Assembly (NCBI RefSeq): GCF_003149045.1
Contig: NZ_QGDU01000013.1
Span: forward strand, 1-64,000
DNA length: 64,000 bases
Source: Fibrobacter sp. UWR4
Lineage (GTDB): Bacteria > Fibrobacterota > Fibrobacteria > Fibrobacterales > Fibrobacteraceae
Reading direction: 5' to 3'
Shown here in pieces: positions 43,063-46,845 of the stretch (position 1 is its first letter; the number at the start of each line of letters is the position of its first letter). The position numbers were made by a program, and so were the translations under genes. The notes beneath the pieces are model-generated. The model saw nothing but the letters and a program-made list of their open reading frames with translations. It ran no database searches and was not told the DNA's origin.

Positions 43063-43093
43063 TTGACCCCTCCCCTATTTTTTTCTATCTTTG
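43063..43093 (+). promoter_or_regulatory. Promoter of fusA (TTG / TAnnTTTG type)
   Basis: TTGACC (43063-43068), 17 bp, TATCTTTG (43086-43093). The start codon is 43 bases further on. One of the clearest promoters in the window. Confidence 0.75.
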
Positions 43094-43135
43094 GGCGCAA
43101 CTCAAATAAACATCAACTCCATTTGTGGAATAACT

Positions 43136-45265
43136 ATGAAAAACATTACTACCCACAGAAATATTGGTATTTCTGCACACATCGACTCCGGTAAGACCAC
43201 TCTTACCGAACGTATCCTCTACTACACCAAGCGTATTCACGCTATCCACGAAGTTCGTGGTAAGGACGGCGTCGGTGCCACGATGGACTCCATGGAACTC
43301 GAACGCGAACGCGGCATCACCATTCAGTCTGCTGCTACCTTCGCAAGCTGGACCCACACCAAGTCTGGTGAAGCTGACACCATCAACATTATCGATACCC
43401 CGGGGCACGTGGACTTCACTATCGAAGTTGAACGTTCTCTCCGTGTGCTTGACGGTGCTATCCTCGTTCTTACCGGCGTGGAAGGCGTTCAGTCTCAGTC
43501 TATTACCGTTGACCGTCAGATGAAGCGTTACCACGTACCGCGCGTCGTGTTCGTCAACAAGTGCGACCGTTCCGGTGCAAATCCGCTCCGCGTTGCTGTG
43601 ATGCTCAAGGAAAAGCTGAACCACAAGCCCTGCGTCATGCAGATTCCTATCGGTCTGGAAGACCAGCTGAAGGGTGTGGTCGACCTCGTCGAAATGAAGG
43701 CCTACTACTTCGAAGGCGCCAACGGCGACGACATGATCGAAAAGGAAATTCCGGCTGAACTGGCTGACCAGGCTCAGGAATACCGTGAAAAGCTCGTTGA
43801 CTGCTGCGCAGACTACAACGACGAAATCATGGAAATGGCTATGGAAGGCAAGTACGGTGTCGACGAAATCGACAAGGCCCTCATCAAGAAGACCATCCGC
43901 GAAGCTACCATTTCTCTCGAAGTCACTCCGGTGTTCATGGGTTCCGCTCACAAGAACATTGGTATCCAGAAGCTCCTGGACGGTGTCGTGGACTACCTCC
44001 CGAACCCGCAGGAAGTCGAAAACAAGGCTCTCGACCTGAACAACAACGAAGCTGAAGTTATCCTCAAGTCCGAAGACAACGAACCCATGGTTTCCTACGC
44101 ATTTAAGCTGGTGAACGACCGCTACGGTCAGTTGACCTACATCCGCGTCTACCAGGGTGTGATCAAGAAGGGTGACATGATCACCAACATCTCCACTGGC
44201 AAGAAGGTTTCCGTTGGCCGTCTCGTTCGTATGCACGCTGACGAAATGGTGGATATCACCGAAGCTGGTGCAGGCGACATCGTTGCTCTGTTCGGTATTG
44301 ACTGCGCATCCGGTACTACCTTTACCGATGGCAAGAACAATTACAACATGACCTCCATGCACGTTCCTAACCCGGTTATCGAATTGGTGATCGAAGCTAA
44401 GAACCGTGACGACCTGGACAACATGTCCAAGGCTCTGAACCGCTTCACTAAGGAAGACCCCACATTCCAGGTCGAAGTGAACAAGGAATCTGGCGAAACC
44501 ATCATCAAGGGTATGGGCGAACTTCACCTCGACGTTTACATCGAACGTATGCGTCGTGAATACAAGGTTGACGTTCAGACTGGTGCTCCGCAGGTTGCAT
44601 ACCGCGAAACCATCACTCGCGCTTCCAAGTTCGACTACACCCACAAGAAGCAGACCGGTGGTAGCGGTCAGTACGCTAAGGTCGTCGGTGAAATGCGTCC
44701 GATGGCTGTGGAAGGCGACTCCGAAAAGGTTTACAACTTCATCAACTCCGTCGTTGGCGGCCGTATTCCTAAGGAATACATCCCGTCCTGCGATAAGGGC
44801 TTCCAGAGCTGCATGGCTGCAGGTTCCTTGATCGGCTTCCCGGTCGTTGGTATCGAAATGGACGTCCAGGATGGTGCATTCCACCCGGTTGACTCTTCTG
44901 ATATGGCCTTCCAGGTTGCTGCTCGTATGGCTTTCCGCGAAGCTTTCGCTAAGGCTGGCGCTCAGATCCTCGAACCGATCATGAAGGTTGAAATCCAGAC
45001 CCCGACCGAATTCCAGGGTTCCGTTGTTGGTAACGTTTCTCAGCGTCGTGGTACCATCGCTGGTACTAACGAAGAACTGGGCATGACCACCATCACCGCT
45101 GAAGTTCCGCTTTCCGAAATGTTCGGTTATGCAACTGACCTGCGTTCTATGACCCAGGGTAAGGCAGAATTCACCATGGAATTCTGCAAGTACTCTCCGG
45201 TTCCGCGCAACATTCAGGAAGAACTCATCAAGAAGTACGGCGACAAGGCTGGCGCACGCGCTTAA
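43136..45265 (+). CDS. fusA: Elongation factor G (mitochondrial/EFG1-like type)
   Basis: Translocation GTPase of 709 residues. GTPase motifs: AHIDSGKTT (P-loop), [10 protein letters not shown] (switch I), DTPGHVDF (switch II), [10 protein letters not shown]. Domains II-V follow, with [21 protein letters not shown] in domain IV and QRRGTIAGT near the end. Ser in AHIDSGKT, where classical bacterial EF-G usually has Ala, recalls mitochondrial EFG1 and the spirochaete/planctomycete-type EFG1. It stands alone, not in a str operon. Codon use is strongly biased (many GCT, GGT) compared with its neighbours, as expected for high expression. ATG 43136 was chosen over GTG 43091, which would add unrelated residues. 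Confidence 0.95.
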
Positions 45266-45320
45266 CCTGACCGCATGGGCTAAGGCTGGATAGAACCTCT
45301 CGTAAGCCCATGCTCTCGCA

Positions 45321-45358
45321 AAAACAAAACGACCGGGTCATACCGGTCGTTTTGTTTT
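45321..45358 (+). terminator. Terminator 1 after fusA
   Basis: AAAACAAAACGACCGG (45321-45336) pairs with CCGGTCGTTTTGTTTT (45343-45358): 16 bp, the strongest of the three. Confidence 0.92.
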
Positions 45359-45426
45359 GCTCACGGGGAGACCGCATGGGCTAAGGCAGGATAAAAACTC
45401 TCGTAGGCCCATGCTCTCGTAAGCAA

Positions 45427-45589: not shown

Positions 45590-45795
45590 GAAAAGAACCC
45601 TGCGAGTCTAGCCCGCAGGGTTCAGTGGAATTAGAAGAGAACAAGTGTGCTTCCTACCTAATCTACTCCGCGGTTAGAGGCCGGCATCCCGTCTCGAAAA
45701 CCAGAATAGGTTGGAAGCACGTTCTTAATATACCTACCAATCACCCCGCAAGGAGATTTTTTCACAAACAGGCTGTTCCCAGAAAAAACATTCCA
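45590..45795 (-). ncRNA. Candidate structured RNA
   Basis: On the minus strand a possible -10 (TATACT, 45807-45802) is followed by about 200 nt with a long stem, GTGCTTCC-a-ACCTA (45722-45709) with TAGGT-a-GGAAGCAC (45661-45648), and a terminator hairpin (AACCCTGCG/CGCAGGGTT, 45623-45597) before TTCTTTTCC. The stem loop encloses a GC-rich core with CCGCGG. It matches no RNA family I know; RNase P, SRP, tmRNA and 6S landmarks were looked for and not found. Confidence 0.4.
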
Positions 45796-45823
45796 ATATA
45801 GAGTATATGTTTTTTCCGAGCCT

Positions 45824-46033
45824 TTTACCCATAAATAAAGATAATATAAGGATCTTATAGGTAAATTCACATACAAATTAACACAATAACTTGTAAATCC
45901 TTAACTTTTTTACCCATAAGTTCGGCACTACACGATTTTTATGGGTAGCATACGAAGTTTCTTTTTAACTGCAATTCTTTTTTGGAGAAAATTTACCTAT
46001 AAGCCTCCCTTTTACAACTGATTTATAGGTAAT
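45824..46033. repeat. Three phased inverted-repeat pairs (TTTACCyATAA / TTATrGGTAAA)
   Basis: Left arms TTTACCCATAA (45824), TTTACCCATAA (45909) and TTTACCTATAA (45992) each face a right arm: TTATAGGTAAA (45855), TTTATGGGTA (45938), TTTATAGGTAA (46022). The arms are about 30 bp apart, and units repeat every 83-85 bp. In pairs 2 and 3 the variable base changes on both arms together (C/G, T/A). It lies just beyond the 3' end of mazG and overlaps the possible -35 of the candidate RNA. Confidence 0.8.
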
Positions 46034-46038
46034 TTCTG

Positions 46039-46845
46039 TCAAGACCTAGCCGTTTTAACTTTCGCTTCCCGCCACAGTTCCTGGAGGCGTTCCGGAGTTT
46101 CCTCCTTCATCTCCTTGCCCTCGGCGCGGGCAAGTTCCTCCACGATGCGGAAGCGTTTCTCGAACTTGGAATTGGCCCGTTCCAGCGCAAGTGCGGCATT
46201 GAACCCGCAATGACGGGCCACGTTCACCAGGCTGAACAAAATATCGCCGAACTCATCTTCCATGCGGTCCACATTGGGATTTTCCGCAGAGGCCGCTTGC
46301 ATTTCGGAACGGAATTCGCTAAATTCTTCTACGGCCTTATTGAACACAGGTTCCGCCTCGATCCAGTCAAAGCCCACCTTTGCTGCACGGCGTTGTATTT
46401 CCTGGGCACGGGCCAGCGTGGGCATGCTCCGGCTTACTTTATCCATAGCGGACTTCCCCGCCATATCCTGATTATTCTTTTCCGCAGCCTTGATGCGTTC
46501 CCAGCGTCGGGTGACCTCGCTTGCGTCGTCCACCTTTGCATCGCCAAAAACATGAGGGTGACGACGGATCATCTTTTCGCAGATTCCCTGCACCACATCG
46601 TCAATACTGAAATCGCCAGATTCCTTTGCGACCTGTGAGTGAAATACCACCTGGAAGAGAACGTCTCCCAGTTCTTCCGCCATGTGGACCTTGTCGTTGG
46701 CCTGAGCAGCATCGATGTATTCGTGGGATTCTTCGACCAGATACGGGAGCAGGGATTGATGAGTTTGCTTGCGGTCCCAGGGGCAGCCATTTTCCGAGCG
46801 GAGAGTGGCCATAATATTCACAAGATCTTGAAAGGAATACTTCAT
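46039..46845 (-). CDS. mazG: Nucleoside triphosphate pyrophosphohydrolase MazG
   Basis: House-cleaning enzyme hydrolysing NTPs and dNTPs to monophosphate and pyrophosphate. It has 268 residues with two MazG domains. The first carries RSENGCPWDRKQTHQSL, LVEESHEYIDA and ELGDVLFQVVFH with the EExxE/ExxD metal ligands; the second carries FDWIEAEPVFNKAVEEFSE and EDEFGDILFSLVNVAR. ATG 46845 was chosen by alignment with family N-termini; its start codon touches that of dprA (46846) on the other strand. Confidence 0.93.
   Translation of the reverse strand: MKYSFQDLVNIMATLRSENGCPWDRKQTHQSLLPYLVEESHEYIDAAQANDKVHMAEELGDVLFQVVFHSQVAKESGDFSIDDVVQGICEKMIRRHPHVFGDAKVDDASEVTRRWERIKAAEKNNQDMAGKSAMDKVSRSMPTLARAQEIQRRAAKVGFDWIEAEPVFNKAVEEFSEFRSEMQAASAENPNVDRMEDEFGDILFSLVNVARHCGFNAALALERANSKFEKRFRIVEELARAEGKEMKEETPERLQELWREAKVKTARS

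Follow-up and report, generated by a model that had tools for sequence, protein, structure and literature searches.

In the 64,000-nucleotide stretch of the Fibrobacter sp. UWR4 genome analysed here (the window), three inverted pairs of short arms stand just beyond the 3' end of mazG, and the question they raise is what so regular an arrangement is for. The original prediction described six arms alternating in direction, about 30 bp apart within pairs that repeat every 83-85 bp. All six were located (45825-46032; Table 1), and the measured distances are 30, 29 and 30 bp between the starts of paired arms of about 11 bp, and 85 and 83 bp between pairs; the window has three such inverted pairs, and 60 dinucleotide shuffles of it have none. 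The answer developed below is that the feature is probably a dispersed, gene-less recognition array belonging to a chromosomal nuclease-like protein family of the genus. One detail of the prediction, the variable base that seemed to change on both arms together, proved a coincidence: pair 1 carries C/A, and the two bases vary independently over 56 distinct pairs of the window type (CG 8, CA 15, TG 14, TA 19; Fisher p=0.59). Its view that the spacers are unrelated and the array no product of duplication holds inside the window array but not elsewhere in the genus, where whole arrays are copies of one another. Neighbouring proteins match Fib_succ_major and TIGR02147, as would be expected of Fibrobacter.

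Table 1. The phased array and its neighbours, in coordinates of the window.
Feature	Coordinates	Strand	Remarks
Whole phased array	45823..46034	.	Three inverted arm pairs, pitch 85 + 83 bp
Pair 1, left arm	45825..45834	-	TTACCCATAA on +
Pair 1, right arm	45855..45864	+	TTATAGGTAA; 20-nt spacer
Pair 2, left arm	45910..45919	-	TTACCCATAA on +
Pair 2, right arm	45939..45948	+	TTATGGGTAG, one mismatch; 19-nt spacer
Pair 3, left arm	45993..46002	-	TTACCTATAA on +
Pair 3, right arm	46023..46032	+	TTATAGGTAA; 20-nt spacer
mazG	46039..46845	-	Context; array begins just beyond its 3' end
fusA (elongation factor G)	43091..45265	+	Convergent with mazG; named by translation
Small-RNA-like gene	45590..45722	-	Conserved; terminator hairpin 45595-45623

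The array is not peculiar to its place in the window. A search for the pair as TTACCYATAA-N20-TTATRGGTAA, with the reversed pattern as a control, gave 12 exact matches in the window's genome against none for the control, besides further variants with one or two mismatches. Nearly all of the exact matches lie within three-pair arrays, and the same pair type stands at about seven further places in that genome. Of the 168 genomes scanned from the phylum, 17 contain it; 16 belong to the same genus as the window, and the one outside that genus has just a single pair. Arrays in other species comprise three to five pairs, and the viral contigs scanned with the TTACCYATAA-type pattern contain none. 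All four arm types searched are dispersed (ACCYATAA, GCTACTAA, TGTGGGTA in the window's own genome, and TACATACT), TGTGGGTAAA arrays occur in the window's genome as well, and the arrays number about 5-15 per genome. The window array belongs to the TTACCYATAA family as an orphan, a copy with no gene of its own. Among the orphan arrays classified, 53 of 54 are intergenic (22 convergent, 22 tandem and 10 divergent contexts, 1 overlapping a predicted gene), with a mild excess of convergent contexts (22/54, p=0.03); the window array should itself count as convergent, because the gene caller missed mazG.

Distances from one pair to the next cluster at 53, 63, 74, 84, 95 and 106 bp, intermediate values being almost absent, and a period of 10.6 bp fits the 230 spacings best (R=0.91, against at most 0.24 among 2000 random sets). 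Such quantisation by helical turns favours a protein on one face of double-stranded DNA and disfavours a reading as RNA. In 12 orthologous array comparisons the arms are 96.6% identical (913/945) against 77.9% for the spacers and 79.6% for the flanks, so that it is the arms rather than the spacers that are conserved. The 10.6-bp pitch, the conserved arms and the candidate cognate protein described next all agree with the earlier proposal that the sites lie on one helical face for a putative cooperative binder. In the array of a further gene of that protein's family in the window's genome (L178, G000:C7:98600-101600) the pitch is unusually short, at 53 bp (5 turns). A CRISPR-like array was considered and rejected: the repeats are inverted, not direct, and the spacers are recognisable between sister species.

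Comparison of array-adjoining genes between species yielded one recurrent gene. For the window arm type the cognate gene lies in the same genome as the window (G000:C2:217-1044, 276 aa), directly preceded by an array that is split by the contig end. Matches to the protein family are present in 50 of 168 genomes, with 1-7 copies each. Each fetched gene was checked for phased pairs upstream, the arm sequence not being assumed: a phased array of at least two pairs precedes 63 of 73 loci and 12 of 19 more, or 72 of 89 distinct family genes once three loci counted twice are removed, and shuffled upstream DNA never gave two or more pairs. Some family genes have no detectable upstream array. In seven loci (L152, L164, L170, L180, L181, L228, L231) an array lies downstream, added to the upstream one or replacing it; L228 and L231, for instance, are followed by GTGGCGGTGA-type repeats. 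The genes occupy fixed chromosomal places by miaB, purA or gatA (names from translations), with host housekeeping neighbours only and no recurrent partner gene, defence partners included, beside them. A full-length stand-alone relative in a human gut contig (L197:3033-3836, MT839528), with no phased array nearby, indicates that the protein family extends beyond Fibrobacter. Two genes from an orphan array in another genome (G011), a gene that by eye encodes a Vsr-like very-short-patch-repair endonuclease was noted (L040:7728-8297).

Arms read differently from one subfamily to the next (TGCTACTAAA, GGTTACTAAA, TTACATACTAAA, GGGGCATATAA, TGGGTACCAAA, TGTCACTAAA, CACCCACTAAA, GTACCTATAAA and others), nearly all arms consisting of 6-7 variable bases followed by YAAA, and the rules of spacer and pitch are common to all. 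Arrays and cognate genes also occur together across genomes. Orphan ACCYATAA arrays are found in 12 of 12 genomes with the cognate gene and in 4 of 68 others of the genus (p=3e-11); G006, G022, G053 and G060, some of them incomplete, each retain one array although no cognate gene was detected in them. All 6 genomes with the gene of the TACATACT type have TACATACT pairs and none of 6 without it does, the sole exact match in one of the former (G020) being the gene's own array. Because the genomes are related, these figures are to be read as associations and not as independent trials.

The two halves of the protein relate to the arms differently. Arm similarity follows N-terminal identity (Mantel r=0.42, p=0.0005), also when the C-terminal half is allowed for (partial r=0.33), and the C-terminal half itself adds nothing (partial correlation -0.12); from this covariation, it is most likely the N-terminal half that reads the arms. 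The C-terminal half has an invariant RSKSE...E...PxF...WEH arrangement (E158, P203 and W218-E219-H220 invariant, the PD aspartate D204 nearly so) and matches the C-terminal domain of the PADLOC PDC-S68 helicases (E=5e-24). The fold was predicted on relatives of this domain from viral contigs, not on the 276-aa protein itself, and is of the PD-(D/E)XK nuclease type (pLDDT 87). With VIA-align the viral relatives' domain scores Z=9.6 against I-Bth0305I (3r3p), 8.6 against Bax1, 8.2 against TnsA and 7.4 against Vsr (1vsr). Foldseek gave no match to the PDB at E<=0.001 for this domain (best Bax1, 1.1e-3), and the fold assignment therefore rests on the VIA-align Z-scores and the motif. The C-terminal half is thus a predicted PD-(D/E)XK nuclease domain. 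The conserved E, PD and E/H of the PD-(D/E)XK / EDxHD core are present, the fold being that of the viral relatives' domain. Both the fold and the arrangement of Glu, PD and WEH motifs recall the Vsr/EDxHD nucleases and the free-standing homing endonuclease I-Bth0305I, from which the Fibrobacter protein differs in its N-terminal part and its linked phased arrays; neither an intron nor a homing target was seen with it. Pfam and NCBIfam searches with 28 family members gave no Y1 domain or other convincing match; Pfam, NCBIfam and PHROG searches with the whole protein found no family at a convincing score, and a PDB sequence search with it nothing meaningful.

The evolutionary history of the arrays combines changes of specificity in place with copying. 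At the same chromosomal place, different species have different arm types beside the family gene, which indicates that specificity changes in situ. At one locus (L199) a TGCTACTAAA array is present in G045, G047 and G053, the site is empty in G004, G014 and G051, and the array of G006 can be aligned with the others but has TGATACCAAA or a close variant in every arm, a concerted change from TGCTACTAAA to TGATACCAAA (L225, G006:C126, around 2560-2860); no cognate gene was identified for this switched array. As to copying, arrays of G048 reach 81-87% identity across about 220-370 bp, with ends close to the outer arms and unrelated flanks, and those of G074 and G038 are 70-80% identical paralogues; array-sized copies with unrelated flanks mean that the array itself is the unit copied. 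Positions of arrays of the window arm type are mostly common to sister species and the copies are old, hence these arrays are not hopping today. Neither target-site duplications nor clean insertion boundaries were found, and the empty sites in G004, G014 and G051 fit gain or loss. We infer mobility by the protein rather than observe it: besides the age of the copies and their common positions, no array was caught moving.

We suggest the following scheme. The protein encoded on contig C2 would read the arms of about 11 bp through its N-terminal half, as the covariation supports, and from the geometry it would assemble on inverted pairs about three helical turns apart, three to five of which would stack cooperatively along a single face of the helix. 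An array upstream of the gene probably provides autoregulation. The array is the unit that reached other intergenic places by copying, as the G048 copies show, and the most likely agent is the protein, working in trans. The system would then work in the manner of REPIN/RAYT, with a single-copy enzyme and scattered, non-autonomous cognate repeats.

In REPIN/RAYT systems a single-copy gene lies beside its own repeat, repeats in inverted pairs are scattered extragenically, several families, each with its own gene, may share a genome, and the replicating unit is gene-less (PMC3116915, PMC2817692); the RAYT is a REP-associated tyrosine transposase of the HUH/Y1 type (PMC3116915, PMC2817692). The Fibrobacter system likewise has a repeat beside its cognate gene with dispersed extragenic copies, and a unit copied within the genome as array-sized stretches with unrelated flanks. 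It differs in an enzyme of predicted PD-(D/E)XK type with no Pfam match, in a unit made up of 3-5 double-strand pairs set at helical-turn intervals instead of single-strand hairpins, in about 5-15 arrays per genome rather than hundreds, and in an arm specificity that evolves in place. It therefore lacks two defining features of REPIN/RAYT: its enzyme is no HUH transposase, and its pairs, helically phased and without covariation at the variable base, do not behave as a single-strand hairpin.

We found no description of such a gene-plus-array system in the open-access part of the literature, and we lean towards regarding it as an undescribed class in which the specificity of a nuclease-fold protein changes rapidly in place and the six or more arms of its scattered, helically phased arrays are altered in concert with it, and which may serve selfish copying, chromosome organisation or the distinction of self from non-self. 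Through it a large protein family without annotation, from a genus important for fibre digestion in gut and rumen, is tied to a strict DNA architecture predictable from sequence, and its roughly 20 arm types with their proteins form a natural data set for decoding the specificity of a new DNA-reading domain. It also raises the questions of why a nuclease-like protein with many sites on its own chromosome is kept, and how all the arms of one array come to be rewritten together.

Repeated protein-binding sites scattered on a replicon or arrayed in it are familiar from parS/ParB, matS/MatP and sopC-like sites, which the Fibrobacter arrays resemble as repeated putative protein sites, scattered or arrayed. 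A domesticated architectural factor, for which the arrays, about 5-15 per chromosome, would be selected anchoring sites with a role like that of matS or parS, is a possible reading, if not a probable one. It would explain arms that stay nearly identical while spacers drift, positions common to sister species, arrays spread along long contigs, the joint switch of all arms in one of the orthologous arrays, and intergenic sites with their mild convergent excess. Patchy presence in close relatives and empty sites misfit an essential chromosomal function; several independent array families in one genome and the conserved nuclease residues of the protein also speak against this reading. The linked gene is neither ParB nor MatP, and the arms, unlike parS and matS, are non-palindromic, inverted and split by 19-20-nt spacers; a ParABS partition system was rejected on the grounds that the repeats are split and inverted instead of palindromic and that the linked gene is no ParB CTPase. 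BIMEs and Correia-type repeats are, like the Fibrobacter arrays, dispersed extragenic inverted repeats; we know of no co-varying cognate gene or helical-turn spacing rule for them.

A role in defence or self-recognition, with the nuclease attacking incoming DNA and the chromosomal arrays holding, titrating or licensing it, appears unlikely; fast change of arm specificity would then reflect conflict with phages or other elements. The C-terminal domain common to the PDC-S68 candidate defence proteins, also found in viral contigs, points this way, as do recognition diversified at fixed gene loci and the 1-7 family genes per genome. The same domain does occur in RecD2-like helicases of about 1120 aa in two viral contigs (L189, L190). 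PDC-S68 is a helicase fusion of about 1200 aa, unlike the stand-alone 276-aa Fibrobacter protein with its arrays. Against defence, the scanned viral contigs have no arrays of the window type, housekeeping genes take the place of recurring defence partners beside the gene, and the protein falls convincingly in no Pfam, NCBIfam or PHROG family.

That the array governs its neighbours in the window, as a local operator of the small RNA or mazG, is very improbable. The array does lie upstream of the small-RNA promoter (- strand), but many relatives keep the arrangement of RNA and mazG without it, sister arrays adjoin unrelated genes, and only 10 of 54 stand between divergent genes. At the mazG locus the window's genome shares it with G011 and G055; close relatives such as G036 and G024 lack it there. 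Between G011 and the window, arms are identical at 61 of 66 positions and spacers at 74 of 148; in G055 the arms are partly degenerate. The suggested fixed operator, partition or replication site is not supported: the array is one of many dispersed copies and is missing from this place in those close relatives. Absence from relatives that keep the flanking genes, which the original prediction would have taken as a sign of chance, does occur at this locus, but it reflects the patchiness of the whole array family between genomes and not a chance origin of the array. The weakest reading, a structured RNA or terminator built of hairpins, was rejected for want of covariation between the variable bases of the arms (p=0.59, with C/A mismatches in 15 of 56 pairs) and is hardly credible. 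In its favour the strand folds more stably than its shuffled versions (z=-5.2), but so would any sequence with inverted repeats; against it, the predicted fold mostly joins arms of different pairs, helical-turn spacing is meaningless for RNA, and fusA has terminator-like hairpins already.

The small-RNA-like gene is context, outside the array system: many species of the genus keep it, and relatives have it whether or not the array is there. An Rfam search of the region including it gave sub-threshold matches only, none at gathering score. It consists of a GTGCTTCC...GGAAGCAC stem, then CTTGTTCTCTTCTAATTCCACT and the terminator, and lies between fusA and mazG. Upstream of its promoter a GGAA...TTCC-like element, TTGGAATGTTTTTTCTGGGAAC (45775-45805, - strand), is kept in array-less relatives too. 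Downstream of fusA (45270-45420), two GCATGGGC...GCCCATGC inverted repeats lie 101 bp apart, each followed by a terminator-like hairpin.
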